From contig OX328110.1 in the NCBI GenBank assembly GCA_946811185.2, positions 21,810,456 through 21,874,455 of the forward strand: a DNA stretch of 64,000 bases, written 5' to 3'. Position numbers and translations under genes: made by a program. Below the pieces are notes generated by a model that was given only the letters and a program-made list of their open reading frames with translations, was not told the origin of the DNA and did not search any database. The stretch is from Hippopus hippopus. Taxonomy: Eukaryota; Mollusca; Bivalvia; Cardiida; Cardiidae. Shown here piece after piece: positions 29,580-64,000 of this stretch (the stretch's first letter is position 1; every line of letters begins with the position of its first letter).

Positions 29580-32500
29580 CTGTGATATTTATGCATACGA
29601 AATCGAAATATTTGAGCCATGCCCTGGCAAAATGGGACTTAATGCATCTCTGTGATGCATTATACCAAGCAAGTCATCAAATAACTATGGATCCATAAAA
29701 TCCATTTTGTAAATTAACCATCTGAATTATAAGGTAAATTGGTCCTTTGAGCTGCAGAAAATTGACCAATTCAGCCTGCGTGGATTGCACAAGCTTAACT
29801 GTGTCAATACATTTTGCAGATGCAGTAAGCCTCCTTTTCACACAGCATGGTGCATATATGATGGAATGCACAAAATGGTCACATGGAAGAAAACCATCGT
29901 TTACTAATCCCGAGACTGGCAGGAGTTCACTCTATATTTTTGTAATCCAAAAATCAGTAACAAAAAGAAGCCAGGCAATGCGATGTCCCAGGTCAATCCG
30001 AAAGATACACGATAATTATGCACATTGGTCTATTTCTTATATGGGTGTTTAACTCTTTACCACACAACCCTGGTTTAAAGACCCTGAAATACACACATAT
30101 ATATCCACATATACAGTATACATGCTAGACCTTTGCCATATGGTCAGGAACAAGTAGATTTTTAAAGGTTTCTCTATATAAGCCCATGTAAAACTTGTGA
30201 CCCTTGGGCTGGGTAAAATTTGTGCTATAATCTGATGAATCTTCGATAAAGCTGCATGCTAAATTTGGTAACCCTAGGCCCTATTGTTTGGGACAAGAAC
30301 ATTTTCAAATATTTTTAATAATTATATTTTTCAGTTTTGTTGCCATATCATCCACAGATTTTACAGCAATCAAATTCTTTCAAAATTTCCTGAAGAGGAC
30401 CATGGCAGGATCATTTCTGTGAAGTTTGGTCAAAATCAGGCAGCTAGTCTCCGAAAAAAAGACGTTTAAAATAAGTCAACACAAGGATAGACGCACGACG
30501 GACAACTGACCATGGCATAAGCTTTCTTGCCTTCAGCCAGTAGAGCTAAAAACTAACCCACCAAAAAGTACATTTAAACTTGGCAATCAGCTTATTTTGA
30601 CAACACTGGCTTTAACAACACTGGAGTGCAAGGTAAAAGTTAACAATAGAAAACATACTTTGTGTCAGGTTCATATTCCCATTCTGATGATGTCAGCTTA
30701 GCTATACACCTTGTTTTCGTTGTTTTTCCTCCCATATGTACACACAGTTCATGCATCAGGCTTTCTATCTCAAACACATCTCTAATCCTGTTTGGAATCC
30801 CTGTTAGAGCATTGCCATGTATCCACTCTAGGCAGTACTCTACCAGCTGGTAGTTTTCCTGGGCACCCTGTGGTAAAGGACAAGCAAATGAAACTCTTTA
30901 TCACACAGTCCTGATTTTTTAACAACCGGTAAAGAGAAAAGTATTTAAAACATACAGAAAAAGGAAAAAATGCTGGTAACCAACATCTTCTCCTTTTCCC
31001 ACACGGTTTTCTACCCTATTAAAGACAGATAATGTGATTTTAGCAACATTTCTCATTTGCAAATGCTCTCAATTTAGTCCAGTCCAAAATTTTGTTGTTT
31101 GATAAAGAGTTACACCCTTTGCTTGACAATAAACAAGAGGGCCATGATGGCCCTAAAGTCACTCACCTGAGTCTTTTGACCAAACATGACCCATTTTCAA
31201 TCTCTTTTGAGATATCATGACAAACAATTTACTTAGCTTTCATAATTATTGGACTGAAAATTTGGCCTCTAGCATATACACAAGCTTTTTCTAGAATTTC
31301 TCTCAGTGACCTACTTTTTATCCAACCATAGCCAATTTTCCCATTGTAGATATTATCAAAACAAGGATCCTGACCACCTTTCATAGTATTGGACAGAAAA
31401 TGTGGCCTATAGAGCATACACAGGTTTTTTCTAAGATTTGTACTACTGACCTAGTTTCTGACCCAACATGACCAATTTTCGAAGTCATGTGAGATGTCAT
31501 CAAGTAAAACATTCTGACCAACTTTCAAGAAATTTGGACTGAAACTGTGACCTCTAGAGCGTATACAAGGTTTTCTTTTAAGATTTGACCCAGTGACCTA
31601 GTTTTTTGCCTGACATGACCCATTTTCAAACTTGTCCAAGATATCATCAAGACAAACATTCTGACCAAATTGCAAGAGTTTTGGACCAAAAATGTGGCCT
31701 CTAGAGTGCACACAAGGTTTTTCTAAGATATGACTTGTGATCTACTTTTTGACCAGACATGACCCATTTTAGAACTCGTCCAAGTTATCATAAAGACAAA
31801 CATTCTGACCAACTTTCAAGAGCATTGGACTATAAATGTGGCCTCTAGAGTGTGCACAAGGTTTTTCTAAGATTTGACCAAGTGACCTAGTTTTGGCCCA
31901 GCATGATCAATTTTCGAACTCATCCGAGATATCATCAAGACAAACATTCTGACCAAGTTTCATGAGTATCGGACTGAAAATGTGGCCTCTAGAGCGTACA
32001 CAAGGTTTTTCTAAGATTTGACCTACTGACCTAGTTTTTGACCCGACATGACCCATTTTCAAACTCGTCAGAAATATCATCGAGGCAAACATTCTGACCA
32101 AGTTTCATGAGTATCGGACTGAAAATGTGGCCTCTAGACTGTACACAAGGTTTTTCTAAGATTTGACCTACTGACCTAGTTTTTGACCCGACATGACCCA
32201 TTTTCAAACTTGTCTGAGATATCATCAAGACAAACATTCTGACCAAGTTATATGAGTATCTGACTGAAAATGTGGCCTCTAGAGTGTATACAAGGTTTTT
32301 CTAAGATTTGACCTAGTGACCTAGTTTTTGACCCGACATGACCCATTTTCAAACTCGTCCGAGATATCATCGAGACAAACATTCTGACCAACTTTCATGA
32401 GTATCGGACTGAAAATGTGGCCTCTAGAGTGTACACAAGGTTTTTCTAAGATTTGACCTAGTGACCTAGCTTTTGACCCGACATGACCCATTTTCAAACT

Positions 32501-35500
32501 CGTCCGAGATATCATAAAGACAAACATTCTGACCAAGTTTCATGACTATCAGACTGAAAATGTGGCCTCTAGAGTGTACACAAGGTTTTTCTAAGATTAG
32601 ACCTAGTGACCTAGTTTTTGACCCGACATGACCCATTTTCGAACTTGTCCGAGATATCATCAAGACAAACATTCTGACCAACTTTCATGAGTATCTGACT
32701 GAAAATGGGGCCTCTAGAGCGTACACAAGGTTTTTCTAAGATTTGACCTAGTGACCTAGTTTTTGACTCGACATGACCCATTTTCAAACTCATCCGAGAT
32801 ATCATCGAGACAAACATTCTGACCAACTCTCATGAGTACTGGACGGAAAATGTGGCCTCTAGAGCGTACACAAGGTAAAAGTTGACGACGGACGATGAAC
32901 GACGGACGACGCACGCCGGACACAGCACGATCACAAAAGCTCACCATGAGCACTTCGTGCTCAGGTGAGCTAAAAATGTAAGAGTTGTCCAAATTGAAGC
33001 CATTTGCAGAAAAAATGTTAAACCTTAAGCTGCTGAGCCTGACTCACTGACCTTTTGAGTCTGATCTTTGATCTACACTGTATGATAAGGGAGATATTTC
33101 TCCCAAAAAAGTAACTTTGAAATAGCAACCTTTGGGTCCGTATTCACCAACCAATCTTAAGAACATTCTAAGTCTTATTCTCCAAGTTTTTCCATATTTG
33201 AAAGTAACACAAATTCTGATTGGCTAAACCAAATAGCCAATCAGAAGTTGTGTTACTTTCAAAGTTAAAAAGTTATTGAGAATAAGACTAAGAACGTTCT
33301 TAAGAATGGTTGGTGAATACGGGCCCTGGCTTTTTACTTTTGACTTGAAGGTATAGTTTAATTTACTTAGCATGATAAGGATTAAATGTGGCTCAAATGG
33401 TAGGAGGCATTTCATCGGCTAGGAGGCATTGTGGGAATGAGCGAAAATGCTGGTTACCAGCATTTCCACTTTTCCTGTGCTTTTTTTTAAAAGACTTCTT
33501 TAACCGGTAATTGAAACTCAGGACTGTTCATTTACCAAACAACAAAATTTTGGATCATACCAAACTGAGACTCGGAGCAATTGAAGTCAACAATGTGAAT
33601 GTAGCTAAAATGATGATTTCTGTCTTTCATAGGGTACAAAACATTGTGGGAAAAAGTAGAAATTGCTGGTTACCAGCATTTTCTCCTTTCTCCACAATGT
33701 TTTCAAAAGCCTTCCTTCCCAGAGTCATGAAAACCAGGGATTGTTTGGTAAAGGGTTAAAGTGCTAAGCATTTTCAAAACAATTCCACGTTTTAACAAAC
33801 ATTAGAAAAAAGATTTTGAAAACACTGTGGGTCAAGAAATGTTGAAAGCATATGCAGACGACAAATTAAACACAGTTTAGATAATAAATGTGGCTAAAAT
33901 AATGCTGTTTATATCTGAAAGAGCAGAAAACATTCTTGGAAAAGGATACCAGTATTTTTTTTCTTTTCCAATAATGTTTTCCAGAGTCACTTTCTTCAGG
34001 ATTGTTACAAGACAGGATTGTTGGGCAAAGGGTTAAAAAAAAAACACTCACAAGACAGTACAAAGGTGGGTATTCATGTTTCTCTCCATTCGGGTTAATA
34101 AAGTTCTCGATCTGGTTCCACAAGCCCAAATAGTTTGAGTCCGCCAGCTTGAAATTTTCCACGGGTATTTGGTGAGTATCCTGACCTATCAGATAAATCA
34201 ACACTTTGTGTGTAATAACTTCACCAAACAATCTTATGTTTAACGAGCCCAAGAAAAAAAATTTTCCAACTGAGATTGCAGAAGATACTACGTCATGAGA
34301 GTAAAGTACATGATCAATACTTGGTTGATGTTTTCGGTCAGCATCCAATCAAATTTCATTTTGCATATATGCACCTTAGCCTGTTTACAATTGTAGCTCG
34401 GTTTCAAATGTGTACATACACAAGTAGATAGCTCCATGACATTTACTCCGAAAGTAGAATAAAACAGTCTCTAGAGGGGGTGAGTGCAACAAATTCGCAA
34501 ATTTTGTTGTTTTTAAAAAGCTTTGGCTGCGTTTCTTGCTTTTCATTAAACATGCAAATCAGAAACTGTCCACGTGCATATGCCTTAGCAATAATGACGT
34601 CACTTTTTTCCGCGAAACGGTGTAGTAGAAATTCCAGCATTTACTGTGGTTGATTTCTCGCGCTCATGACTGAAAATTGATCAAAACCGGGACCCAAAAA
34701 AATGATAATACACTAGTGTATTATCAAAAATGAGTCATGGGTTTAATGGTTTTATGTGATAAACTTACTTTAACACTTCAAAGGGGATATTCAAAATGAG
34801 TAGCAATGAGAACTCTTTTGTGGCTTTTAACCTATTCCAAACAACCCTGAGCTTTAACAGCCCTAATTAAGGCATTTTTGAAAGTATTATGGGAAAAGGA
34901 GAAAATGTTGGTGGCCATATGTCATAGAGAATATCTCACATGTATAAACCTACACTTACATTAACACTTCAATGGAGATATTCAAATTCAAAATGAGAAG
35001 CAAGGAGAAATCTTTTGTGACTTTAACTCTTTACCACACAATCCCGACTTTTAATGACCCTGAGAAAGAAGCCTATAGAAAACATTGTGGGAAAAAGAGA
35101 AAATGCTGGTTACCAACATTTTCTCCTTTTCCCACAATATTTTCTACCCTATCAAAGTCAGAAATCATCATATTACCAAGATTTAATTTGTCATCTGCAG
35201 ATGCTTTGAATTTGGTCCAGTCAAAAAATTTGTCATCTGGTAAAGAGTTAAGCAATTCCAAACAATCCTGAGTTTGCACAACCGTAAAGAAGGAATTTTT
35301 GAAAACATTGAGGGAAAAGGAGAAAATATTGGTGGCCAACATTTCTTCCTTTTCCTACAATGTTTTCAAATGTGAGACATTTGTCTCTACTTTTTAAAAT
35401 CCTTGGCAGAACACTGATTACCCCTATACAGAGAAACCAGAAAGATCCTGTCAAAGTACATTTAATCTCAACATCTAGTTGGATACTTCCTAGCTTGCAA

Positions 35501-41500: not shown

Positions 41501-44500
41501 ACACAAGAAAAATTTAGACCTGTCCCAATCTAAAGCATTTGCAGACCACATATAATCAGTGACTTAAATGACGGAATTTGTCTTTGATAGAAAAATCAAT
41601 GCTGGTTACTAGCATTTTCTTCTTTTCCCACAACATGTTTTTAAAAGGTTTCTTCCTCAAGGTCGCTTAAAGTCGAGATTGTGTGGTAAAGGGTTAATGC
41701 CCCTTTAACTCTTTACCAAACAACAAAATTTTTGACTTCACCAAATTGAAGGCATTTCCAGGCGACAAAATGATTTGGAGCTCAAATGACAATTTCTGTC
41801 TTTGATAGGGTAGAAAACATTGTGCGAAAAGAAGAAAATGCTGGTTAAAGACATATTCTCTTTTTCCTAAAGTGTTTTCCGAAGCCTTTTTCCTAGGGTC
41901 CTTAAAATTTTGGGTTGTGTGGTAAACATTTAAGATCATGACCCATAGACATTTGAGATAAGCACATAAATTATCAACATAGAAAAACATAGAGGGAAAA
42001 GGAGAGAAGGCTAGTTATCAGCATTTCCTCCCTTTCCCATATTTTCAGAAGCAACTCTTCTTCCAGGTCTGTTTTTCCTCTCAGTCATTGTCTCTTCTAT
42101 AATGAGTGATTGTGTGATTCACACAGATTTTTTTCAGATCCCACATAAATTCAGACCCAATGCGTAACAGTCCCTCATACAAAAAGAGACAAAAGAAAGT
42201 CAGAATTTACTCTTGTGTCGAGGAAATTCAGCTGTTCTGAATAAAATGGCATCATTGCTAAAGCTGGTTTTTGCAACATATTACAAGTATGTCCATTAAA
42301 GTAACCTCCCTTTACATGGAGTGGCCTGCTGCCAAGACGACCCACTTTTCTGGGTACTCCCTACTTTTTGAAAATCCTGCTAAAGTTTTAGATGAAAGGT
42401 GGAAAATCTCCAATCAGCTTCTAGAATAGACACTGCCCAGTTGCTATCAAAAGCCTTTCTTCTTTCGGGTCATTGTGCAATTGTTTGGTAAAGGGCAAAG
42501 GGCACTCAAAATATGCTTGCTTAACACATGTACATTTCAACATTCATAAAGTCAACATTATTCTTGCTTTATTACAGGTTGCTTGCTTGCTTAGCCCTTC
42601 ACCAAACAATCTCAACTTTTAACGACCCTGACAAGGAGGGCCTTTGAAAACATTGTGGGAAAAGGAGAAAATGCTGGTTACCAGCATTTTCTCCTTTTCC
42701 CAAAATGTTTTCTACCTCGTCAAATACAAATCTTATAATTTGAGCCACAATGAATTCATCTTCTGAAAAGGCTTTCAATTTCAACATGTCTAAAACATTG
42801 TTTTAGTGGTAAAAGTTGTAAAAGAAGGATTGGGTCACTAAAACTTGGTTTACTGTACTTAGCCAAGCTAAATAATGCAGTTGGTAACAAACAAGACTCG
42901 AAACCAGGAGGTGGTCGATTCAAATCTCAATCTCTGCCAATTTTTCTCCGAAGATTGTTTATATAAGTGATAGTCACAAGATTAATTCCTCACTCACCGC
43001 TGGTCTTTGTGTTGACAATGGTAATGTGGGAAAGCAGCCAATGCTTTGGGAAGAATACCTTGTAAAGAACTGGGAAAAGACACTACTGGAAAGCATGGAT
43101 AGGTGCACTTGCTGCCACAATATAACTGAAATAATGTTGAAAATGGTGTTTAACACCCAACAAACTGTACTTACCGCTAAAACATCTCCCTGGTTGTCCA
43201 GTCTATATTTGTCCCCTTCCTTTCCTCTCATCTTTGCTTTGTACTCCTTGGCCATTTTTTCAAAGCGCTCTTTGTCCTTCTCTGGTAATGCCTAGCCACA
43301 ATATAATCACAATAATTATAAAATCACCTCTATTGACCAAACAATACCATGTTTTAACAATCCTGTGGTAAATGGCTTTTAAAAACATCCTGTAAGAAGG
43401 AGAAAATGCTTGTTACCAATGCTCCTTTGGGAAACTGGACAAACATGGATTTGTCAAAAATTACCCTAATAACTATAAGTTCCTGAAATCTCACAAAAAA
43501 TTCCTGAAATTCAGAATCAAAGTTTCCAAATCCCTAAATTTAGCCCTACATTCATGATAGCACTGGTTACGGTATTGCCATAGAAAACTTAAAATCATAA
43601 TATGATCAGACAAGTGAAAACCTGGAAAGACAAGTGAATTCATAAACTACCTGTCTGAATGATCCAATGGATCAAAAAGTTAGTATTGCACCTGATCTTA
43701 ATAATGAAACATTTGCGATGCTTTTCATATTTGAATGTTTATTGTGCACCGTACCATCTCATGTCTATTGTGAGTTTTCCGGAGAAAAGCTGCAACGCTG
43801 CACTGCCTTTTTGTTTCATTGATTTAATCTGCATTGCAGGGAAATTCAATTAATATTTAGTGACACATGATCAAGGAAAAATTATCCAACGTTTCTTTAA
43901 CAAACTATTAAAAGTCGTTTATAACAGGTAAATCTTGAAAAAAAAATAATGAAATTTATTGTGTTTGGCAGCAATTTTTGTGTCTATTTTGGGAAACATA
44001 AATATCTCAAGGAAAAGATGAATTAAACTGTTTTTTCTTATGTTCATGCTTCCCAACTCTCCCGATTTGATCGGGAGTCTCCCGATTTAGGACAAAAAAC
44101 CCGATCACCCTGACAGACAGTTCCAAAACCCCGACTGGCAAATATTCCGATATAAGGGTGAAAAGGGTGTGATATTGTTATACATACGAAGCCACTAAGT
44201 AAGTGACAAGTGTGTGTCAATCGGTTCATGTTTTATTCAGATGACTTTCTTATCGAGATTTTATGGATCGTATATCATGAACCAATCAAATTTGAGAACT
44301 TGCTGATCGGCAAAATCCGTATTCTTTCCGGCAGAAATTAAGTCGTCCTTCACCTTACGTTAGAAAACTATGACAGCTTGTTGACAAAGTTAACAGCAAA
44401 TCAAGCCGGATTAAACGGTGTAAGAGACGTCTGTATGCAACAATGGAGTTTGAACAGAGACAGACAGTCAGCAATCACGGTACATATTTGAAGTTTATTT

Positions 44501-46872: not shown

Positions 46873-47521
46873 CCTGTAAGAGCTGAAAACATTGGCAGAA
46901 AATGAATAATTGTGTACTTAACATGCCTGAGGGTCAACCTTTCAATAGTGTACATAGGATAAGTGACCAAGTCTGCATCTTCTTAGGACCTTACTGTCTA
47001 AAGTTGTAACTGTCCGATATGACTTTCTTCAAAATGTACAATTTCTACACACACAAACAATGAAACAAACAAAAAAAAGTTAGGTTACATGACTAATTGA
47101 AAACCATAGTCCTGCGACTTATCTTGGAACCAGTGCCTGACCTACATAGTGTTCAATAAACTTCAGACGAATACTAGTGGCATCCGGAAGCTATGCTATT
47201 TTACACAGTGATTAAAGTGAGAATGAAATTCATCGTCTTCGAAATATTTACAGTCACTTCTGTACAAAGATGAAAAACCACATAACAAGGTATTTCATTA
47301 GATTTACATTTTTCCTTTTTAATGTGGAAACTTTTGATCGCTGAATCAGAAGAAATAAATAAAAACGATTGTTCAATAGTCGTAGATTGCGGGAAACCAT
47401 GAATTGGTTGAGGGTATGTGTAGTCCTCGGCTCCACCGGTAAAAGAGTGGATTCGATATTTCCCTGCCCTGTAGGCTCGAGAGTGGAACACATAGACCCC
47501 TGACTATTTAGAACCCCTAAA
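46873..47521. other. region upstream of mael, possible promoter and leader exon
   Basis: Contains no recognised repeat. The AG directly before the mael ATG implies that a non-coding first exon may lie here or further upstream. A minus-strand frame at 47201-47493 (MFHSRAYRAGKYRIHSF...) has no family I recognise. Confidence 0.35.
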
Positions 47522-51905: not shown

Positions 51906-52077
51906 GACTTGGAAATAAGATTGTCTAATGACATAAGCTCAATTCCGGACCATTTCCTCCTTTCTAATGTATGTTTTTTTTTTGGTTGTTGTTGCTGCTG
52001 CTTTTTTCTTCTCTTTTGGTATTCATGATAGATAAATAAGAAAACTACAGTTCCTAAAATTTTATTGAAAACTTTAA

Positions 52078-52279
52078 TTGAACCCTTTAACAAGCGATAA
52101 AATTTTGTACTTTACCAGACTGAAAAAGACAAATGAAGCTCAAATGATGAGTTCTGTCTCTGATAGGGTTGAAAACATTGTGGGAAATGAAGAAAATGCT
52201 GGTTACCAGCTTTTTCTTTTTTTCCCCCCACGATATTTTCAGGGGCGTTAAAACCCGGGATTGTATGGTAAAGGGTTAA
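52078..52279 (-). mobile_element. TTAA palindrome MITE
   Basis: ACCCTTTAACAAGCGATAAA to GTATGGTAAAGGGTTAA. Confidence 0.75.
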
Positions 52280-52589
52280 ATTCCTTTACCTAATTTTCTC
52301 TAAGGGGTTTGGTTCTACTAAGTCTTTCACTAAAGTTGTAAATGAACTCCTTAATTGTGACAGGAAGGTTGGCTACTTGAGCTTCAGTAGAAGATGATTG
52401 TCTCTTATGATAAGAGCTGATAAAGCATAAGAAACGTTTATGATATGATAAAGAATCATATTTTCTTCATCTTTAATTCTGTTTGGCTTTCTTCATATTG
52501 AAATACTAGTAAAGTGACCATTAACTTCAAGTAGAGCAATTCAGGCCCTTTTTAGAATGACAGAGAAAAAAAAAAAAGATAAGACAGTA

Positions 52590-52770
52590 GGGCCCATTTC
52601 ACCAACCATTCCATATTGCATTCTTAGTCTTATTCTAGATTTAGAACGTAATCCAATTTCCGATAGGCTGAACCATTTAGTTTAGCCAATCAGAAATTGC
52701 TTTACTTTGCAATTTAGAAAACTCTTGAAGGTTAGACCAGAAATGTTATCGAGAATGGTTGGTGAATACC
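52590..52770. mobile_element. foldback MITE (GGGCCCGTATTCACC family)
   Basis: GGGCCCATTTCACCAACCAT to ATGGTTGGTGAATACC. Centre AACCATTTAGTTTAGCC. Confidence 0.75.
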
Positions 52771-52779
52771 GTGAGACCC

Positions 52780-53712
52780 AGGATATTTAGAGAACATTTT
52801 TTTCACGGTAACAGTCACAAATAGTCACATTTTTTTCATCAATTAATTCTTTTCTGAACTCATTTTAGTCCATTTTTTAAAGGGCAAATCCAATAATTTT
52901 TTAACTTGGCTGTTTTTTTCATTCAATCATCTGAAAATGATGTCAATAAAACATATGTACATCATTTTCCACAATTATCGCCCACTAACATGCCATAAAT
53001 CACGGTTGAATTGTCACGATGATTTAGGGCTCTAAAATGGTCCCTGATTTGGTTACCTCCCGTCCCTGTGTGACGTCACTGTCGAGGTTGGCTATTTTCC
53101 GTTCCATAGGGATACTGAAGATCGGACGCAATTATCCAAGTGTCAAATAAAAATTTAGTCAGAAAATGACAATTTGTGCAACCGATGGCCTCAACGTCGA
53201 TTCGTGGAACCATAGAGTCAGTATATATTCGATTGTTCTAGAGATTTAAGAAGGAGAAAACTATATATTTAACGTGTGAAACCGGGATCGGACAGTAACG
53301 ACGGATTTTTTGCCATCGAATCATTCCGAACTGTGTCCTTTGAGGACAGTATGGTTGCAATAGATCTATATTCATAGCTCACAAAGGTAGTTGTTTTAGG
53401 ACTTTTAGGCAGGGATTAAAGTCTGACGCTGTGCCAACACTGTTCGACAGAGAGAGGTAAAATCGAAAGGCTGACACTCCGCGATAGCCGTTGGAAAAGA
53501 AACTTGAGGTATCTTGCGTTCCATAGAGATACTGAAGATCGGACGCAGTTATCCAAGTGTCAAATGAAAATTTACTCGGAAAAATGACAACATTTAACAA
53601 AATTATAGATTCATCAAAATTCATAACATAAATTTTGCAAACAACAAAGTCGGCTATGTTCAAATGGTGTTATCTTTCAATGGATAATAATTCTTCTTTG
53701 AAAAGCAAACAT
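52780..53712. other. unclassified sequence
   Basis: GC-richer patches with TGACGTCAC (53072) and the direct duplication noted separately. TTTAAAGGGCAAATCC near 52878 recurs inverted near 56345, so both blocks may belong to one unclassified element or gene family. Confidence 0.35.
53082..53600. repeat. ~75-bp direct duplication, unique sequence otherwise
   Basis: CGTTCCATAGNGATACTGAA, GATCGGACGCA and TTATCCAAGTGTCAAAT occur at about 53100-53175 and again at 53518-53590, some 420 bp apart. The sequence between is not a recognised repeat or gene. Confidence 0.6.
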
Positions 53713-53797
53713 CATTTTTTTCCTACAATGTTTTTTAAACACTCTTTCTTTCGGTATTGGAAACTAGATCTAGGGTTTGTATGGTAAAGGGTGAAAT
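53713..53797 (-). mobile_element. TTAA palindrome MITE, terminal fragment
   Basis: CCTACAATGTTTTTTAAAC to GTATGGTAAAGGGTGAAA. Confidence 0.55.
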
Positions 53798-54272
53798 CAG
53801 TATCTGGCTACCCCAAGTGACGGTCATAAATGTTAATCCATCACCAACCAGTTAAAACAATACACGAAATGATTACATAACATTTGCATATCTCACCCCT
53901 TTACAACGTTATGTTTGTTTGTGATAGTGGTCGGTGACAGTAGCTGTTGTAGCTTTTTATCCCCTACAATACTTCTCTGACATTTCACTCTTAAAGATGA
54001 TTTGTAAACTTACACGCCTTTTGAACAAATTTTGAATTATCTCTATACAAGTTTGACTTGTGCAAATTATTTCCTTGTTCCTATTCATATTATGTCTTCT
54101 AGACAGGCTACTGAGACAAATCTTTTGAACAGTATGAAAATTCTGAAATTTCACATTTGACACAAGTCATTTTTTCTGAAAATCAGAAAAAAATGAGCAC
54201 ATTAAAAATTATATATATTTTTCTGAAATTAAGAAATAGAATGTTTCTGACCAGACTCACACACCAATTCTT

Positions 54273-54504
54273 TTACCTTTTACCTAACAATTCCGACCTT
54301 CAACCACCCTTATGGAGAAGGCTTTTGAGGACATGGTGAAAAAAGGAATAAGTTCTGATAACCAGAATTATCTCCTTTTCCTACAAAATTTTCTACCCTC
54401 TATCAGACAAACCCATTCTCAAGGCTACATTTGATCTGTGGTCTGCAAATACTTTCAGTGTGGAGTGGACAAGTCTAAAGTTTTGCCATCTGTGTAAGGG
54501 TTAA
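54273..54504 (+). mobile_element. TTAA palindrome MITE, diverged
   Basis: TTTACCTAACAATTCCGACC to CATCTGTGTAAGGGTTAA, with the centre TTCTGATAACCAGAATT. Confidence 0.65.
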
Positions 54505-54582
54505 GCCTAACCCTAACCCAAATGATAAAATATTAGAATATTTCAAACCCACAGCATTTGAATATGACCGATAAAATGCGGA

Positions 54583-54680
54583 AAACTCTTTACCAGACAA
54601 AAGTCTAGACTTGTCCGAACTGAAATTAAATATAGCCCAAAATTAATGATGTTGGTCATTGACAGGAGGGAAAACAATGT
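54583..54680 (-). mobile_element. TTAA palindrome MITE, half copy
   Basis: AACTCTTTACCAGACAAAAG to GACAGGAGGGAAAACAATG. Confidence 0.5.
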
Positions 54681-55920
54681 TTGACGGAACAGTTTGATGG
54701 CCTTTCATTGCAAAACACCAAACGATATCGAAATACACTACATTTTCCCAAATGGTACATACAATATATATGTATGATAAATATTTGGATTAAATGGATC
54801 GAGTGTACAAGGTAAACAGCAAAAAGTGTTTAACTCAGGTTAATCCCCTCTCCCTCTCTCTTATGTACATGTATTTTTATTTATCATAAAGGAATACACA
54901 CAACAATAATAAAACATTTCAAAATAATTTAAAGAATTAACTCTAAATAATCTCGAAACATATTCTTTTATCAAATTTCTTGCTGGTTTACCAGTATTTT
55001 TAAAATTCTCTTCTTTTTATGAAAATCGTGATTCATTGTGTATTCACCCATGAGAGAATAAACTTGTACCCGTCAATTAATACAGAATTCTTCTTTACAA
55101 GGTACAAATATCAACAAATAGTAAGAACTAATATCTCATGATTATCAATCATTAAAGGTGGCCCTTCAGATTTTGGGACAAAAATTTTGCAAAAATACAA
55201 AAAAATCATCCTTATACTCCCAAAGCCTTTTAATTTTCATTCATAAAACCCCAGTAGCCGAAAACCATCCGACAACAAGAGAAATTAGCGATTTACTACG
55301 GCCCAGGTCGACACCGACGGGAAACACGGTCTATTTTTACATGAGCAACTCTCTCATTTACATACCGGAAATACACAGACGAAGCTTCAAACATGGCGTT
55401 CGAAGAAGACATTATGGAAAATAATAACATGTTTGTTATGTTATGGAATTTAAGCGTCATTATTCACTTGACATTCCCACAATGCTTTTTTGATTTCTGG
55501 CGCGAAATCTAAAAATACCTTAAGAGGCTATGTAGCCTTTTAAGGGAACACCATCAAAAAAAAAAATTGTAATCTTATGATTCTTAATTATTGATGATTT
55601 GTATTGTTTTTTCATATAAATTTCAGTGATATATATATTTTTTTAATTTGGTGAGATGTGAAAAATCTAAATACCCTCCTTTAAAGTCAATAAAAAGGTT
55701 ATTTGACATGAAACTAAAGTGTCAGAGAACTGTCTTTAAAAGTGTTGATGAACTGTCTCGAAAACCTGTGTAGGGAAACTGTCTTATCGGGGAACTGTCA
55801 GATTAAAAACCCTAGTTTTCGTTATTTTTGTTTAATTCCGCCCGTTAATCGACTGAAAATGCTTCACATGAAACAAAGTTTACACCATATACTTAATTTT
55901 ATCATGTATAGATCAATATT
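54681..55920. other. unclassified sequence
   Basis: A possible first-exon-like segment at 55260-55430 on the plus strand ends ATGGCGTTCGAAGAAGACAT. No domain is recognisable, and the rest is AT-rich with no gene seen. Confidence 0.3.
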
Positions 55921-56140
55921 TCTGTAAGTGATGTTCGCCCCGTAATGGGCGTATTTCAAAAGCGCCCGATACCATGTTGAAACGTCCGGCACAACATCGT
56001 CATCAGTGGACGAAAAGTTACTTTCATCCTCATCTTCAGAAACTTGATTACTTTCTTTAAAAAATGGCTCGTACATGTACGGCCTTACCGGACCGGAATC
56101 GTCTATTTCTTCGTCTTCAATATCGCCAAATTTACTATCG
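55921..56140 (-). other. possible acidic exon fragment (RPYMYEP motif)
   Basis: The minus-strand frame reads FGDIEDEEIDDSGPVRPYMY then EPFFKESNQVSEDEDESNF. An R-P-Y-x-(F/Y)-E-P motif followed by an acidic stretch resembles the N-terminus of P2X7-like zinc-finger proteins that are multi-copy in molluscs and cnidarians. The downstream zinc residues are absent and no Met opens the frame cleanly. Treated as an unresolved fragment. Confidence 0.3.
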
Positions 56141-56445
56141 TAAGTTTACAACGTCCATATTCAAACATCCTCTCCTATGACGTCACAAATCAAGGGACGC
56201 AACCAAAAAGTAAGGGAAATAAGCGATGCCGTAAAAATTAATAAGCAGAAATAAAAATTGAAAAAAAAGTCCTTTTACTGATTTTTTTTTTTTCTAATTA
56301 CAACATCAACAGGTTACCAAAATTGACCATATCTGAAACTTGTTGATTTGCCCTTTAAAGACGATGTAATAACGTAAATGTATCTCTTTTCGTTAATCAA
56401 GTACATCTGACACGAAACAATAATGTTCTTTAATTTTTAAGTATA

Positions 56446-56712
56446 TATATGGCCTGCAAACGCGAAAAAGGGCATTCGGCCATTTGCGTAGTGTCGTCTC
56501 GGATCAGCCTGCGCAGTCCGCGCAGGCTTATCCGAAATGACGTTTTCCGTTTTTATGTAATTTTCTGTTTTGCACAAGTCTACTGTAGCACAAAATCTAA
56601 TGTAGTCGTAAAGTGCCGTCTTGGATTAGCCTGCGCAGACTGCACAGGCTGATCCGAGACGACACTTTACGCAAATGTCCGAATGCCCCTTTTCGCGTGT
56701 TGCAAGCCATAT
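56446..56712. mobile_element. MITE with TATGGCYTGCAA ends
   Basis: Terminal repeats TATGGCCTGCAA... and ...TTGCAAGCCATA. Two internal palindromic pairs (ATCAGCCTGCGCAGTCCGCG CAGGC and TTAGCCTGCGCAGACTGCAC AGGCTGAT), plus GTGTCGTCTCGGATC. Complete, non-coding. Confidence 0.85.
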
Positions 56713-56719
56713 AACATGG

Positions 56720-57790
56720 TGTCTTCTCTTATTGTTCAAGTATATGCACCTATTAATATTCTCCGCTCATTGTTCAAGTACATGAACATTGTATATGCAC
56801 TCATTATTATCCACATTCATTGTCCAAGTACATGTACATGCACTCATTAATATCTACATACATTCATTGCTCAAGTTTATAGACTAATTAATGCCTACAT
56901 TCGTAATTCGAGTACATGTATATGTACTCAAAAATACCTACATACATTCTTCAAGGTTATATACTAATTAATGACTATATTAATCATTCAAGCACATGCA
57001 TATGTACTCCAAAATATCGATATTCATTGTTCAAGTATATAAGCTAATTAATTACTACATTCATTTTTTCTAGTACATGTACGTACTCAAAAATATCTAC
57101 ATTCATTGTTCAAGAACATGTACATGTAATCATTAATATCTACATTCAATGTTCGAGTATATGTATCCTATATGAAGTACCTATAATCATTGTTCAAGAA
57201 GTGTAACATACATGTAGTTTCTCTATTGAGTACATGTTCTAACTCAAAGCTCTAGGTTTTTCATGAGAGTATCCTTTGGCGAGAGACTTCAGAGCACTAG
57301 CCAGAAATTCTAGTGGAACTCAAGAAATGCATGAAAAAGTGAGCTGTCATCATGATTTGACTGAAATAAAGTTGAAATGGCTATAAATAATATTCAGTCA
57401 ATCAATCAAGAACATGTGACCCAATAACTTTATTCATTGTTCAAATGCATGAAAAAAAATCTATTAATTTTTCAACATAAGGTGTAACATCTTCATTCAT
57501 TGCTCAAGTTCGCCGTGATGTAATTAAATAATGTTGAAAGCAGCCTAAAACATCAATCACTCAATCAATCAATCAATAAAGTATAAATAACATACATACA
57601 ATTAAATGTAGCGTAACATCTCCATTCACTGTTCAAGTACATATAACCTACATATAACACCTCCATTCATTTTCAAGCACATGTAACATTTATAACCAGT
57701 TCAGTGTTGAAGTATATAAACATTTAGAATCTCTATTCATTGTTAAAGTATATGTAACCCACATGTACTCCGTCGACTGTTCAAATGCAT
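56720..57790. repeat. degenerate tandem array, ATTCATTGTTCAAGTACATG type
   Basis: Irregular units of roughly 50-60 bp with CATTGTTCAAGTAYATG and ACTMATTAATATCTAC. SINE tails are inserted near 57335 and 57505. It lies 3' of the OLD-like gene. Confidence 0.65.
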
Positions 57791-58249
57791 GTTATCATAA
57801 GAATGCTTTCAATTGGGCTTGGGTCGATAATTTTGTCGTCCGGTAAAGAGTTAACTCCCTTTTTCCACAGCGCCGCTCATTTTTTTTTTTGTTACATACT
57901 GTTCAAACAAGATGTTTTCCCCTCCTTAAAATACTTCGCCTTTGTGTCGATTGAGCTATTTCTAGTATGTCTAAAATGGCATGTACAGTAATAGATTACA
58001 AACAAAGACAAGGACATAGCCAGGGTTTTAGAACCATTAGGTACCCAGAATGAAAACCAATAAAATTAAGAAAAAACTTTTAATTGATTTCCTTAATGGG
58101 CTACGCAACCGCTTTAGATATCTTTAGATTTCTCGCGAGAGATTCGCAACAAAACTTGTGAGAATGTCATATGATCAAAAACGAGGATTAGTATTCAAAT
58201 AAGTATACTTATATGTTGTCATATATATCAAAGATCATAATGCACTTTC

Positions 58250-58410
58250 CATGCAGTCTGATCTTGATGTATACTGTCTGCAAAAGCTCCTTGAGTAGCA
58301 CTTAGCAGGTTAAGGGTCGATAAATGGCGGATGTTTGTAGACAAAAGATCAGACAGCCCATTTTGCAGCCATCTGCAAAAAGCAGTCGTATCTCGATTAA
58401 CACTACTAAA
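58250..58410. repeat. GTCTGATCTTGAT palindromic repeat
   Basis: GCAGTCTGATCTTGATGTAT and AAAAGATCAGACAGCCCATT form inverted motifs. Related short copies are seen near 3505-3545, 17355-17405, 33040-33075 and 63870-63955. Confidence 0.4.
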
Positions 58411-58684
58411 ATAGCTCAGGTCGTGCTTAGCGCTATATGGGTTTATAATGAGGATTGCTAATTAACAAATTATTATTCCATTTATATGAAGAAAACTGTC
58501 CGTCCAATACCCAATGACAGTCTTTGTCAATATGAGCAAACCCTGCCAATCCGAGAAAAATCTCGACCAGTATCAAAGAAAGTGAAGACCAACATGACAC
58601 GATCAATATCAAATCCAAAATGGACGACAAATTCCGGCCGCTGTTCAATAAAATTGTCTTTAATCAAGATATTCTGTATTAGCT

Positions 58685-58738
58685 GAGTTACAGGTCCGAA
58701 GCCCCGGGCTAATACCGCAAATCTCGGACCTGTAACTC
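58685..58738. repeat. perfect 15-bp inverted repeat downstream of the OLD-like gene
   Basis: Arms GAGTTACAGGTCCGA (58685-58699) and its exact complement (58724-58738) around a 24-base loop containing CCCCGGG. It lies about 180 bp past the stop codon. It could be an mRNA 3' hairpin, a MITE end or a protein-binding palindrome. Confidence 0.7.
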
Positions 58739-58915
58739 GGCCAACACGAAATTACTTCAATAATAAACATTATACAGTCAAATATGCTCTATAATGACAA
58801 AAAATATAAAAGTATTTGATCTGATCCTTCTATTTTGGAACGTTATTCACCAGCTATTGTACTGTGTGTAATGGGCGTTATGCACACATTTTATAAAAGC
58901 TCTATTTTAAAATCA

Positions 58916-60823
58916 TCACTCATGATAATCTTCTCCGTCCCATTGCAATTCGTCGCCTCGGCCATTACTCTCAAGCATAGCTATGATGATAAATTTCAGA
59001 AACATCGGTACTGTACCTCCTTTCCTTGGTTCTCTCTGTCGTTCGTTGACCAAATTAATAGCAGACAACATCCCTGATACAATGCTGTGTCTGTTGGCTT
59101 CTGTGAGGTTGGGTGATTCTAGAAAGAGCTTTCCATTCTTATTAGTCGAGCCCCATTTCTTTATCTTAAATGGAATTCTTCCTCGGACCCTCCTTAAGGG
59201 TACGTTATTTCTTGTTAAAAGATTTCTAAGATTTTCTGCGTGACAAAACGATGCAACCTCCATCTCTAGGTCATGATTCCAAATAAAAACTCCTCTTTCT
59301 GCTATTTCAGTGAATGAGGGATTAGCTGATACAATCCCCAGATTTAGGGTTCCACTGATGTCATCATAGGTATCGTGATCTAACAGGAAGTAACGTGAAA
59401 CTGGCTGCCCATGACTACCTTTCATATCTAAAAAATCGCACACTTTCTCTGCTTTCTGTTTATTTCCTTCTCCTGCTATGTTTATTATTGTCAAGGATGA
59501 TAGAAACTCTTGTAGCTGACTCAAAAAGGGGTCTGCTCTTAATCCAGCCTGTTCCAGAAGATTACGTCCGACATCATTAGAATCATGCACAATAACATCT
59601 CGTATCGCTTCGACAAACATAACATCAGAGTCCCCTTCAACAAGAAACACTCTCTTGGAGAACCAAATAAGACTCATAGGATAAGTTGTTATAGACCTCT
59701 TTACCTTCTCATTAATTTCATCAGATCCCACACTCAGTAAATTTTTGCCATTAAAAACCCTACATTCATCCCCCTTCCCACAAAATATGTAACTTTTTGG
59801 TAAGTTCCAGGGGCTTATAAAGAAAGGATCATGAGTTGCAACAATTACTAGTTTCTCCTGACGATCTATTTGTTTGAGAATATCAAACAATAATTTTGTT
59901 GTCTGCCTATCCATCCCCCTGCTCGGTTCTTCTAAACATAATGTTGTGGGTGTGGTTCCATACAACAGAGCAGAGGATAAATGTCCTTCAAGCACTGCTT
60001 CCGGCAAACGGAGAAGAGGCACCTTCTTCCCGGTACTGCCCATTTTTATTTCGATTGGGCCATTTCTATGTTCTGACGAATATACATCACCGTTTACAAG
60101 CTTACGAAATATACCGGTATGTAAAACCGTCTCACTATCACCATCGTCAACATTCTCTAGATACCACCTCAAAACGTCTGCGTTATCAGAGGATGCCTGA
60201 AATTGATTGGCATCAGCATAGGTAGACTGTGCCGGATTGATACCTCTGTGTGGCAAAGTCATTTGTATTAATATATTTTTTTCAATGAATTCATCGAATG
60301 AAGGTGTTTCAATTTTACGTTTCTTTAATTCCGGAAATATCACCTTATATACATGGAAAACGTCTACATGTAGATCTTCTTCAAGATTACGAAAAAATTT
60401 CTTTATCGTATTTTTTAAAAGGATCAGATCTGCCTGTAAAATGCCGTCTAGCTTTACTTGAAATATTTCCCAATCGTTGTGAACCCTTCTTGCGCCATAA
60501 ACTTGCATTTTGCAGTCGTCTTTATCAGTTGCCATTAAAATCTTTGAAATTTTGTTTCTTTCAATTTTGTGCATGTATATGGATGCGATCTGATAACTAT
60601 TTGTTCGAAAATAGCAGACAGCAAATGAATAACCCGTTGGATTACAAGGAGACGACGCTTGTTTGAGGTCTGTAGTTTTGAGACAGTTACGAATTGCTTC
60701 AAACACGCATGTTTTTCCGGTGCTGTTTCCTCCCAGGAAAAAGTACACCCCATTTTTCTGAAATTTGAAGCTGATCTCATCTCTAAAGCAAACGAAATTG
60801 TAGAGAATAATTTTTCGCAGCAT
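58916..60823 (-). CDS. OLD-like ABC ATPase with C-terminal TOPRIM nuclease domain, intronless, 635 aa
   Basis: An uninterrupted ORF from ATG to TGA. The N-terminus MLRKIILYNFVCFRDEISF is the typical first strand of SMC/OLD-type ATPases. Walker A is GGNSTGKT (31-38), a degenerate signature lies near LEGHLSSALL (278-287), Walker B is TTLCLEEP (293-300, acidic pair E298/E299), and the H-loop is ATHDP (H331). A TOPRIM domain follows: VFLVEGDSDVMF (E396, D400), LLDHDTYDD (D482, D484) and HDLEMEV (about 517-523). In prokaryotes this order is the class of OLD nucleases and GajA, ATP-regulated DNA endonucleases used against phage. The ATPase would gate cleavage by the metal-binding TOPRIM site. All catalytic-type residues appear present, so it looks intact. 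The start is chosen because it is the first Met, opens the conserved strand, and has A at -3. There are no introns, unlike mael. Function in an animal is unknown. Horizontal acquisition or membership of a larger bivalve family are both possible. Confidence 0.87.
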   Translation of the reverse strand: MLRKIILYNFVCFRDEISFKFQKNGVYFFLGGNSTGKTCVFEAIRNCLKTTDLKQASSPCNPTGYSFAVCYFRTNSYQIASIYMHKIERNKISKILMATDKDDCKMQVYGARRVHNDWEIFQVKLDGILQADLILLKNTIKKFFRNLEEDLHVDVFHVYKVIFPELKKRKIETPSFDEFIEKNILIQMTLPHRGINPAQSTYADANQFQASSDNADVLRWYLENVDDGDSETVLHTGIFRKLVNGDVYSSEHRNGPIEIKMGSTGKKVPLLRLPEAVLEGHLSSALLYGTTPTTLCLEEPSRGMDRQTTKLLFDILKQIDRQEKLVIVATHDPFFISPWNLPKSYIFCGKGDECRVFNGKNLLSVGSDEINEKVKRSITTYPMSLIWFSKRVFLVEGDSDVMFVEAIRDVIVHDSNDVGRNLLEQAGLRADPFLSQLQEFLSSLTIINIAGEGNKQKAEKVCDFLDMKGSHGQPVSRYFLLDHDTYDDISGTLNLGIVSANPSFTEIAERGVFIWNHDLEMEVASFCHAENLRNLLTRNNVPLRRVRGRIPFKIKKWGSTNKNGKLFLESPNLTEANRHSIVSGMLSAINLVNERQREPRKGGTVPMFLKFIIIAMLESNGRGDELQWDGEDYHE

Positions 60824-60875
60824 TTTTCTTCTAGTTACTTCGAATTTTTATTCTTAAAAGCCAAAGTAACATGGT

Positions 60876-60881
60876 CTTATA
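60876..60881 (-). promoter_or_regulatory. possible TATA element upstream of the OLD-like gene
   Basis: The minus strand reads ACTATAAGACC about 55 bases before the start codon, spaced plausibly for a short leader. If transcription instead begins further upstream, a 13-codon upstream ORF starting at 60872 would precede the gene. Sequence pattern only. Confidence 0.25.
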
Positions 60882-61659
60882 GTATCTGTATCTTTGATTA
60901 TACCATCGAGGTAGATTTGTATGAAAGACTTGCTTACATTTTAATCATAAACGAAGTGTTAAGTTCTTGTTATAATGCAAATCGTCAGCTTTGGTCATTT
61001 AGCGCGGATATCCGTATGAAAAGATGATACAGTGAAGTTTTTGCGCTTAAATACATTTTGACAATTGATGAATTGACATTAAAAAGTGTTTATATGAGGT
61101 AAGACTGTGTGTTATATTGATATGTATGTATAAAAGACATTGAGCTGCTGAGCAGTCCCTATCAAACTAATGCAAAGCAGCGGGTTTTCGAAAACGTACA
61201 AAACGTAAAATATCTTGGCGATACCAAATAATTATGATTCAATCACTGTAGCGATCTAGACAAAATTTTTGGCCACCTGGCATATGGCAATGTACAATTT
61301 ATCTGTACCTGACGTGGTCTGACAGTTGAAGATTTCAAATATGGGATAGCATGTAAAGGATCTGAAACGAAGCATGTTAGAAGAGTAAAGAAGATGATAC
61401 TTCCTATGAATTAAAGTAAAAGTCACGGCCATGGTACCTCAAGGTCGTTTAAGATATATTGTTTTTACACAACTTTTAGAAAGTGGCAATATGTAACTAG
61501 GTAAACTGTGGCGAGTTCAATTTTTAAGATATAAACTATACGTGAAATGTGTTTGAAGATGATTCATAGCAAATGACGCACAATTATAGTAATTTTTGTG
61601 GAGGGTTTCTAATAACGTCAACCAGATATAGTAAAATTAATGTGTGTACATATATTTTC
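60882..61659. other. upstream region of the OLD-like gene
   Basis: AT-rich. No ORF with recognisable content, no second gene, no repeat that I can place. Any promoter of the OLD-like gene should be in the first part. Confidence 0.4.
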
Positions 61660-62680
61660 ACGAAGACTGTATAGTGTCTATAGCAACTGTTGCAGTCTAA
61701 AACGATGTCACGAAGCTGCAGAAAGTTTATACAACCAAAGTAACGTTTAATATGTAATAACAATGTCTATAGAGCTCTAAAACAGCTGTAGATCTACATT
61801 TAAGTCGACGATGCTTTTACAACTGTAGATAGTTTATACAACCAAAGTAACTTTTAATATGCTATCACTACGTCTTTAGGGGCCTTAGAAAGCAACTGTT
61901 TATAGATCTGCATTTAAGTCCTATCAACAATACCCGAGCAGCAACCAAAGAAGCGACACATGATTTTCCACGAAGTCTGCAGATAGTCCATAGAAACAAC
62001 TGTAAAAAAGACAGATGATTTCTCACGAAGTCTTTTGATTTTCTATAAAAACTTTAGCAATGTTACATGTGCTGTCACAAAGTACGCAGAAAGTGTTACA
62101 ATAACTGTAGCCAAGTCTCATATTTCGCCGCTACGTATTTAGGAATTAAGAACAATTGTAGCCACGTTAGAAATGTTATCAAAAAGTCGTAAAACGCCCA
62201 TTAATAACAGCTTTCGCAACGTTAATTCAATGCACCATCACAAAGTAAGTAGAAGGCTTTATTACATTAGATGTTAATTGTAACTGTAGCCACGGCAGAT
62301 ATGTATACACGAATTCTGTCGCTTGTTAATAACTTTTTCAACATTAAATCAGCAATCACATAGTCTGTTGAAGCCTTGTACAACGTTAAGTAAATGAAAT
62401 ATCAGATGGAATGTAGAAAGCTTTATTAACCTGAGCCACGTCTACTATGATTCCACTACTTCAGAGCTTAATTGCAATTGTATCCACGGTAGCTCTCCCT
62501 GTATGTAAACACCAAGTCTGTAGATTGTTCGTAATAACTTTTCAACATTAAATAAGCTATCACAACGTCTGTTGTTCAAAGGCTTATACATCTGTAGCCA
62601 CGCCTAATGTGTTACCACTATGTCTCTACAATTTAAGTGATATACTGTACTGAGCTCTGTATACGGTATAAAAGGCTTGT
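61660..62680. repeat. degenerate tandem array, AACTGTAGCCACG type
   Basis: Diverged units of about 110-130 bp with CACGAAGTCTGTAGA, TTTATACAACCAAAGTAAC and GTAGCCACG. It lies 5' of the OLD-like gene. Confidence 0.6.
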
Positions 62681-62794
62681 TATATTTCTGTGGCCGCAGC
62701 CATCATCCATGTACCTGTAAAACAGAGAGATAAATCAAGTTTCAATTCCATTCATTTAGTAAACTCTTGTCGAGTTGCTTGGTCCCAAAAATCG

Positions 62795-63086
62795 TTTTCA
62801 ACATTTCATACGTGTCACGGCGTCCAGTACACCTGTAAATTCGGCCATTGGGTTTTCCTTGCCATTGCTTCATACAACTCTTTTTCCGAGCCACTGACCG
62901 TCTTTCTACATGAACATAGTCGTAAAACATACCAGGTGAGGGAGAGAAATGAATCCTGACACCATAGTCGCAGGTATAAAAGCAAACTCCACTAAGAGAG
63001 TATAGCCGTGCTTGGATTCGGTCTGTCAAGCCTTGGGTTACAAGTCTTGTATGCTACCGACTAGCTACCGGGTTTGGTCGCCGAAC
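62795..63086 (-). repeat. tRNA-derived SINE
   Basis: Reverse copy. Body complement near 62810-62960 (GTCACGGCGTCCAGTACACC) and a tRNA-like head complement near 63040-63080 (ACCGACTAGCTACCGGG). Confidence 0.65.
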
Positions 63087-63184
63087 TCAACTAGCAAAAG
63101 AACTACATGTACCTCGATTTAGTGCCAGCGTTTACCGGAACTATGGAAAATAGTACACGGGATGGGGGTTGGGAGTGTTCCCAA

Positions 63185-63358
63185 GCTTTAATGAAGCTAT
63201 GAGTAAAGGCATTTGAAAATATTGTGGGAAAAGGAGAAAATGCTGATAAACAGCATATTCTTCTTTTTCCAGCCATGTTTCAACAATTTTAAAGACGAGT
63301 TCCACTGTTCGGGACGAATTTGGACGAATCTAAATTTTTGTCGCTCGGTAAAGAGTGA
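63185..63358 (+). mobile_element. TTAA palindrome MITE
   Basis: GGCATTTGAAAATATTGTGG to GTCGCTCGGTAAAGAGT. The left end is missing. Confidence 0.65.
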
Positions 63359-63433
63359 AAAGGGAACCCCAAATGTTGCAACGCTTGCTACACTCAAGAT
63401 TGTATGGTAATAAGTTAGAATTATATATACGTC

Positions 63434-63603
63434 TTAACCTTTCCCCTCACAATCTCAAGGTGGAGAAAATGCATTTTCCCCTATTCCCACAATGTTCTAT
63501 CCTTTCAATGACAAATCCCACAATTTGGGCCACATTTAATTTGTCGTCTGCGATTGCTTTGGAATTTGACATGTTGTAAAATTTGTCGTTTGGTTAAGAC
63601 TTA
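63434..63603 (+). mobile_element. TTAA palindrome MITE, internally deleted
   Basis: CTTAACCTTTCCCCTCACAA to GTCGTTTGGTTAAGACTTAA. One palindrome arm is shortened. Confidence 0.6.
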
Positions 63604-64000
63604 AAAACGACTTAAAGTATAAATATGCTCATCACATGTTATTTTCATCATTTGAAAACAGTGAAGCAATCAGAAAAAAATCGTTTGCATCATTTTCATG
63701 GGACATGTTTTGTTCCTGCACAGTGATATTTCGAATTAAACATACCGAGTGATCATTTTCACCTGTTATCCAAGACGAAATACCGGCGGGATGACTTGCC
63801 CAACTCTTTGAAGTTGGTAAATTTTAATTTCATGTTTTTAGGGTCTCAGGGCATGCCTCAGAAAATCAGTCCAAATTCATGATCGCAGAAGTCCACATTC
63901 TGTGCAGTCTGATCATGAGCTACACTTTTTGCAAATTTTCTGCAATGGGCAGTAGCATCAAACACTGTCATGCTAGATCTTTCATTTCAACAATCATTTT
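63604..64000. other. intergenic end of window
   Basis: Only a short GTGCAGTCTGATCATGAGCT motif of the GTCTGATC repeat near 63903-63922. Nothing else seen. Confidence 0.5.

Follow-up and report, generated by a model that had tools for sequence, protein, structure and literature searches.

The gene described here lies on the minus strand of a stretch of 64,000 nucleotides from the bivalve Hippopus hippopus (C15:21810456-21874455, hereafter the window), in contig C15 of 46.3 Mb from an assembly of 1,068,471,763 bases and 34 contigs. It encodes a predicted OLD-family nuclease, an ABC-type ATPase followed by a TOPRIM domain, and is one copy (L001) of a multigene family. The frame is a single coding exon of 635 amino acids with an ATG start, a TGA stop and no interruption. 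From stop to stop it comprises 643 codons; in 200 first-order Markov sequences of equal size this length averaged 153 and never exceeded 226. In addition, the intact open reading frame (ORF) of the original prediction was recovered at its exact coordinates. The CpG observed/expected ratio is 0.78 in the gene and 0.53 in the whole window. The features are given below, with conservation counted in a family alignment of 49 rows; many of these are close kin, so they are not 49 independent tests.

58916..60823, minus strand: coding sequence of the OLD-family ABC ATPase-TOPRIM nuclease (subfamily A, copy L001), identified by ORF, profile matches and structure prediction.
60710..60733, minus strand: Walker A motif (P-loop) GGNSTGKT, residues 31-38; G36 and K37 in 49/49 rows.
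60269..60643, minus strand: fast-evolving stretch in the ATPase region, residues 61-185; ratio of nonsynonymous to synonymous substitution rates (dN/dS) 0.87 (L001/L002), 0.99 (L001/L003) and 0.95 (L002/L003).
59927..59944, minus strand: Walker B motif TLCLEE (in TLCLEEP, with E298/E299), residues 294-299; E298 column E in 47/49 rows and D in 2/49.
59831..59833, minus strand: H-loop histidine H331; kept in 46/49 rows.
59624..59638, minus strand: first acidic motif of TOPRIM, EGDSD (within VEGDSD, with G397), residues 396-400; E396 in 49/49 rows, D400 column D in 46 and E in 3.
59459..59473, minus strand: TOPRIM glycine motif GEGNK, residues 451-455; G451 and N454 in 47/49 rows each.
59372..59380, minus strand: TOPRIM DxD motif (DHD, in LLDHD), residues 482-484; D482 in 48/49 rows (one gap), D484 in 46/49 (one N, one E, one gap).
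59258..59272, minus strand: second acidic motif DLEME (D518/E520/E522), residues 518-522, putatively for metal B; E522 column E in 46/46 rows without a gap (three gaps).

The family in this genome comprises 16 loci, a lower bound obtained by merging neighbours among at least 22 stretches that matched the L001 protein, on the five contigs C15, C7, C2, C13 and C1, including one cluster (C2:6.64-6.86 Mb). Open frames of full length, 627-693 amino acids, were identified in 11 of them (L001-L010 and L012), which provides the paralogue count proposed as a check in the original prediction; the remaining five (L011/L022, L013/L016, L014, L015/L017 and L021) are broken or partial. Subfamily A is formed by L001, L002 (84% identity) and L003 (66%), and subfamily B is about 30% identical to it. 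The Pfam model OLD-like_TOPRIM matched 11 places in this genome, nine over the cut-off and all within the family (L003, L007 and L010 were not matched); elsewhere, the model matched 5/14 control genomes, each a prokaryote. L006 lacks nine residues right before the end of the P-loop. In the neighbouring copy L002 (C15:21885481-21887382) an N replaces the second Asp of the TOPRIM DxD, and metal binding may be altered there.

The Walker A, Walker B, H-loop and TOPRIM acids were located in the order of OLD and GajA nucleases, as first claimed, and are near-invariant in the alignment, which includes 36 of the 47 strong matches of a subfamily-B profile in other records. Since rows outside subfamily A are just 21-29% identical to L001, this retention of the active site is meaningful. 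PMC7049728 gives the acids of the Thermus scotoductus enzyme (TsOLD) as E377, D431 and D433 for metal A and D381, S478 and E480 for metal B, and the counterparts in phage P2 Old as E398, D453, D455, E402, D541 and E543. By analogy, E396 of the clam protein would serve metal A and D400 metal B, as counterparts of TsOLD E377 and D381. The two metal-B columns are acidic throughout (D or E at D400, E at E522 wherever there is no gap), with the DLEME motif probably in register with TsOLD S478xE480. The D-loop carries H in 44/49 rows, as in TsOLD (H283) and P2 Old (H306) according to the same source, and D in five, the subfamily-A rows including L001; some D-loop variants among OLD proteins are described there as not strictly conserved (PMC7049728).

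Profile searches gave this identity in part. On L001, the Pfam families AAA_21 (29.5 bits, cut-off 27) and AAA_23 (27.1, cut-off 27) were over the cut-off, whereas AAA_15 (23.2, cut-off 32.1) and OLD-like_TOPRIM (22.6, cut-off 23.2) were under it, and NCBIfam gave just ABC ATPases and similar proteins far under their cut-offs. GajA was the top PADLOC match (1.2e-14), among 75 families at E <=1 that include other ABC-type defence ATPases. For the profile of the 49 rows, the top six matches among all PDB sequences were TsOLD (6p74, 1.3e-13) and five GajA entries (1.8e-7 to 4.4e-7). With hhalign, the family matched eight OLD-like proteins, drawn from the weak tail of the subfamily-B search (presumed prokaryotic, two of them named OLD-family endonucleases), at probability 99.7 and E 6.6e-26, and phage P2 Old at probability 97.3 and 1.7e-11, with the VEG motif and the DxD region in register. 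The AlphaFold2 model from the 49 rows reached a mean predicted local distance difference (pLDDT) of 78.4 and a predicted template-modelling score (pTM) of 0.82. Foldseek ranked 6p74 first for both AlphaFold2 models (1.6e-13 over 685 columns for the 49-row model), with GajA at ranks 13 and 24. The TOPRIM fold for which a structure prediction had been proposed is thus predicted, and the ATPase-TOPRIM identity is borne out by the PDB profile search, hhalign and Foldseek. In the lists of VIA-align, a second structural aligner, Rad50 and SMC heads prevail and TsOLD is not among the 50 matches listed, which is not counted as evidence against OLD. L001 is almost certainly a member of the OLD family, and by analogy with the solved enzymes its protein is likely an active nuclease.

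The closest known system is class 1 OLD, represented by TsOLD and phage P2 Old, which shares with L001 the ABC ATPase and TOPRIM, the metal A E/D/D and the metal B acids in register; TsOLD is the best match of the clam family by both sequence profile and Foldseek. In contrast to TsOLD (528 residues in the 6p74 chain), L001 with its 635 residues is longer by about 100, spaces the first Glu and the DxD about 30 residues further apart (86 against 54), and like the rest of subfamily A has D and not H in the D-loop; in contrast to both, it is encoded by an animal. Class 1 OLD stands alone, and no partner gene was seen beside L001, where exon-split neighbours could escape notice. GajA, the class 2 OLD of Gabija, provides the second-best solved structures by profile (about 2e-7), is of similar length and has the E, G and DxD of the active site in common with L001 (E379, G409, D432 and D434 in GajA, PMC10781630). 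PADLOC GajA models matched 13/13 family members scanned, whereas identity in the Foldseek alignments is 11-12%. No ORF of helicase size, as for a GajB-like partner, was found among the ORFs of at least 80 amino acids in two stretches of 10 and 9 kb beyond the right end of the window, a search that would miss exon-split genes. For class 3 OLD, of retrons, no Rfam family matched at the gathering score in the 64-kb window, and no search aimed at a reverse transcriptase was made. Cran1, an archaeal OLD ATPase, is an OLD member outside bacteria with a reported role other than defence (PMC12796447).

Selection was estimated as dN/dS by the Nei-Gojobori method (NG86). Whole-gene values are 0.61, 0.56 and 0.57 within subfamily A and 0.29-0.42 in four subfamily-B pairs; the pair L005/L012 was dropped as its dS is saturated. 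By segment, the subfamily-A values are 0.19-0.22 for residues 1-60, 0.15-0.40 for 266-360, 0.60-0.88 for 186-265 and 0.41-0.95 for 531-635. TOPRIM gives 0.39-0.40 in L001/L003 and L002/L003 and 1.03 in L001/L002; in subfamily B the roughly corresponding residues 410-560 give 0.29-0.43 in three pairs and 0.76 in L004/L006, and the stretch corresponding to the insert (61-200) gives 0.20-0.54. For L001/L003 (0.56 overall, 0.39 in TOPRIM), 0/300 bootstraps had dS <=dN in either. In simulations of neutral change, runs without a stop numbered 4/2000 for L001/L002, 0/2000 for L001/L003 and 31, 1 and 0 of 2000 for three B pairs, and amino-acid-changing codons were below the neutral expectation with z of -1.6, -3.5 and, for the B pairs, -5.0, -5.1 and -4.5. 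The ATPase core and, over longer distances, TOPRIM are under purifying selection, and in subfamily A the insert is free to change. Positive selection on this insert (residues 61-185) was considered and is not supported, dN/dS staying <1. These values bear on the alternative of a regulatory ATPase that has lost the ability to cut DNA, which would agree with the loss of the second DxD Asp in L002 and in the related protein P0001 and with the TOPRIM value of 1.03 in L001/L002. It is improbable, as L001 retains the acids and TOPRIM is constrained over the longer distances to L003.

The mode of copying was examined from the flanks of the genes, for which the following stretch was compared.

52001..64000, no strand: stretch compared by blastn with the L002 region C15:21879270-21892380; colinear pieces at 75-85% identity, some of them tandem repeat.

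These 12 kb around L001 are colinear with the L002 region, so the pair arose by DNA duplication (tandem segmental duplication). Upstream flank is also shared by L001/L003 (about 0.8 kb) and L008/L009 (about 0.75 kb), and no A-tract of at least 8 was found within 900 bases downstream in eight of the ten copies checked. The coding frame is uninterrupted from the OLD-type N-terminus in all 11 full-length copies, so that the gene is intronless in its coding part as described before. Six copies (L004, L006, L007, L008, L009 and L010), several of them close kin, have a pyrimidine tract and CAG whose end is some 11-17 bases upstream of the ATG, with 14-base pyrimidine counts of 10-14; in random 60-base stretches of the window a count of 10 occurs in 11%, 11 in 3.7% and 12 in 1.3%. 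Such acceptor-like sequence is absent before the ATG of L001, L002, L003, L005 and L012. It is suggestive of an intron in the 5' untranslated region of those six copies, to which the word intronless may therefore not extend. A mobile element or retrocopied lineage carrying the gene, as raised in the original prediction, would account for the single-exon frame of all 11 copies and for their spread over five contigs. For the recent copies it is not supported, given the colinear flanks and the scarcity of downstream A-tracts, although no systematic search aimed at terminal repeats or target-site duplications was made, and with at least 16 loci in 1.07 Gb it is very improbable for the family.

The remainder of the window contains abundant tandem repeats, among them arrays of a 145-base unit at 15693-17112, 25017-25915 and 31165-32876 and an array of 166/323/492-base units at 19661-24584. 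An HMG-box exon (46624-46917, minus strand) lies about 12 kb downstream of L001 on the same strand (Pfam HMG_box_2 7.2e-7, PDB 2cto 1.5e-7). On visual inspection it is similar to the beginning of maelstrom, and 42977-43291 could be the following exon; we take this as a resemblance, only the HMG-box being confirmed. A frame with a GIY-YIG domain (29083-29415, plus strand, 3.8e-7) resembles, on inspection, Penelope-type retroelement endonucleases. A short inverted repeat, GAGTTACAGGTCCGA ... TCGGACCTGTAACTC, was spotted by eye at 58684-58742, directly downstream of the L001 stop. No transfer RNA was found in the 64-kb window.

Relatives were also sought in other records. Searches with the L001 protein or a subfamily-A profile found only P0001 (64% identity) and P0002 (57%), and the subfamily-B profile found 57 proteins, 47 of them at E <1e-37 and, after a gap, ten at 5.6e-4 to 0.73, two of which are named OLD-family endonucleases by their sources. 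The latter profile listed neither P0001 nor P0002, so such protein searches miss members. Two of the strong relatives are from named bivalves, Mytilus galloprovincialis LOC143082249 and Crassostrea angulata LOC128192386, both annotated as uncharacterized, and the other 45 are, judging from their sequences, probably of animal origin. P0013, P0016, P0032, P0036 and P0045 have a strongly hydrophobic C-terminal segment, as if membrane-anchored; visual inspection showed no such segment in the clam copies. In the tree, two of the five (P0013 and P0036) fall together with P0048 from Crassostrea. With the 46-Mb contig and the 1.07-Gb assembly, the Mytilus and Crassostrea relatives confirm the animal setting first proposed. 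Bacterial contamination or an assembly artefact has nothing in its favour beyond the prokaryotic nature of the family, and given also the tandem repeats and HMG-box exon in the window and the copies on five contigs its probability is negligible.

The tree comprises 25 family rows (11 from this genome, two from the named bivalves and 12 others) and 17 distant rows that are prokaryotic, viral or unassigned. All family rows fall on one side of a branch with an approximate likelihood-ratio (SH-aLRT) support of 100, so the proposed phylogeny gives a single family, if on small and long-branched sampling. In the tree, the partner of L003 is P0002, that of L005 is P0008 and that of L012 is P0007, all of them proteins from other records instead of copies from this genome; the pattern indicates old duplications followed by vertical descent. 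P0001 branches with subfamily A, at a fork that the tree does not resolve. The presence in oyster, mussel and clam together with the single branch suggests one old gain, probably in a bivalve ancestor before these lineages split.

The donor was sought among phages, plasmids and contigs. With the L001 protein, tblastn gave seven phage records (lowest E 9e-3) and 81 plasmid records at E <=1, the best among 20 of the 81 being at E 2e-2 with 28% identity over 28% of the protein; L008 gave no phage record at 0.01. P0037, which groups with a Crassostrea protein, gave 15 plasmid records at 0.01, the best (1e-6 over 27%) being an AAA ATPase of a Hoyosella plasmid that adjoins an annotated helicase. 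Each contig scan used two short patterns, by which distant kin are missed: genome contigs gave 328 and 58 pattern matches and no relatives, and viral contigs gave 194, 8 and 80 with one distant relative (L042), matching residues 1-45. A close prokaryotic donor was thus not found in these searches, where prokaryotic matches were all distant, and the near-identical bacterial matches that would indicate contamination did not appear. Horizontal transfer, as first suggested, fits the pattern of the family, but no donor was found. Descent from a virus of eukaryotes such as a giant virus, and not directly from a bacterium or archaeon, is unlikely, although the OLD-like 'ATP-dependent endonucleases' of Terrestrivirus (1.1e-13, TM-score TMq 0.45) and Catovirus (2.2e-12, TMq 0.40) are the top structural matches of L001 in the viral library, as predicted structures only, and the former exceeds the TMq of 0.38 to TsOLD. 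TM-scores of such magnitude cannot rank candidate donors, the best solved structures by family profile are bacterial, and the three viral scans gave no close sequence relative.

The explanation preferred here is a bivalve multigene family of OLD nucleases, kept and expanded as nucleases, to which a probability of roughly 0.75 is assigned, a figure that excludes the step to defence. Several points weigh against it. The non-family side of the tree is small (17 rows) and long-branched, and 12/25 family rows carry no organism label. No residue could be assigned as the catalytic Lys/Arg of OLD: neither of the two columns tallied past the second acidic motif has an invariant Lys or Arg, and column 565 is K/R in 30/49 rows. 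The TM-scores of the L001 model to 6p74 are modest (0.38/0.45), and VIA-align covers residues 1-388 only. Some copies may not be nucleases, considering the five broken or partial loci and the second Asp of DxD changed to N in L002 and to E in P0001. The Yang-Nielsen method (YN00) gives higher dN/dS, 0.68-0.70 within subfamily A and 0.36-0.51 in five B pairs, and the pair L001/L002 is weakly constrained (0.61 by NG86, 0.70 by YN00, 1.03 in TOPRIM, 0.95 in the C-terminus, z of -1.6).

By analogy with bacterial OLD and GajA, the clam proteins would assemble as a dimer or larger form in which nucleotide binding in the ATPase head holds or releases TOPRIM. On meeting a trigger, which could be DNA ends, foreign DNA or a fall in nucleotide, TOPRIM would nick or degrade DNA. 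This picture of an oligomer with nucleotide-gated cleavage is borrowed from TsOLD and GajA, as are the assembly, the trigger and the nuclease activity presumed for the family.

Defence is the most studied role of OLD proteins, and malacoherpesviruses are among the DNA viruses that infect bivalves. For the clam family, action against DNA viruses or mobile DNA may be the likeliest role, at somewhat under even odds. The growth in copy number, the broken copies and the freely changing insert fit a conflict with parasites without proving one. The main rival is a domesticated OLD enzyme with a housekeeping role in DNA repair, meiosis or the cell cycle, like archaeal Cran1, for which a role other than defence is reported (PMC12796447). 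It is rather unlikely, in that expansion, clusters, broken copies and the freely changing insert would be more typical of immune families than of a repair gene kept as one copy. OLD proteins are described from bacteria, archaea and some viruses (PMC6755086, PMC12796447 and PMC10568477), and the word eukaryot- is absent from the main text of three OLD papers. Among the papers listed, judged by title and the start of the abstract and with poor coverage of subscription papers, no paper on OLD proteins in animals was found; one candidate, PMC13142454, concerns TIR proteins of amoebae.

As a tentative picture, the family may be the animal counterpart of OLD and Gabija immunity, formed by anciently acquired and expanding ATP-gated nucleases that would cut the DNA of viruses or mobile elements, with the insert at residues 61-185 as a changing recognition surface and some relatives placed at membranes by a hydrophobic C-terminus. 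Animals may thus have taken up an anti-virus nuclease whose kind has otherwise been reported in bacteria, archaea and viruses. An intact, selected and multi-copy animal OLD family would, if true, add a nuclease to the prokaryotic-type immune proteins retained by eukaryotes, and would make the use of OLD nucleases by bivalves against DNA viruses testable.
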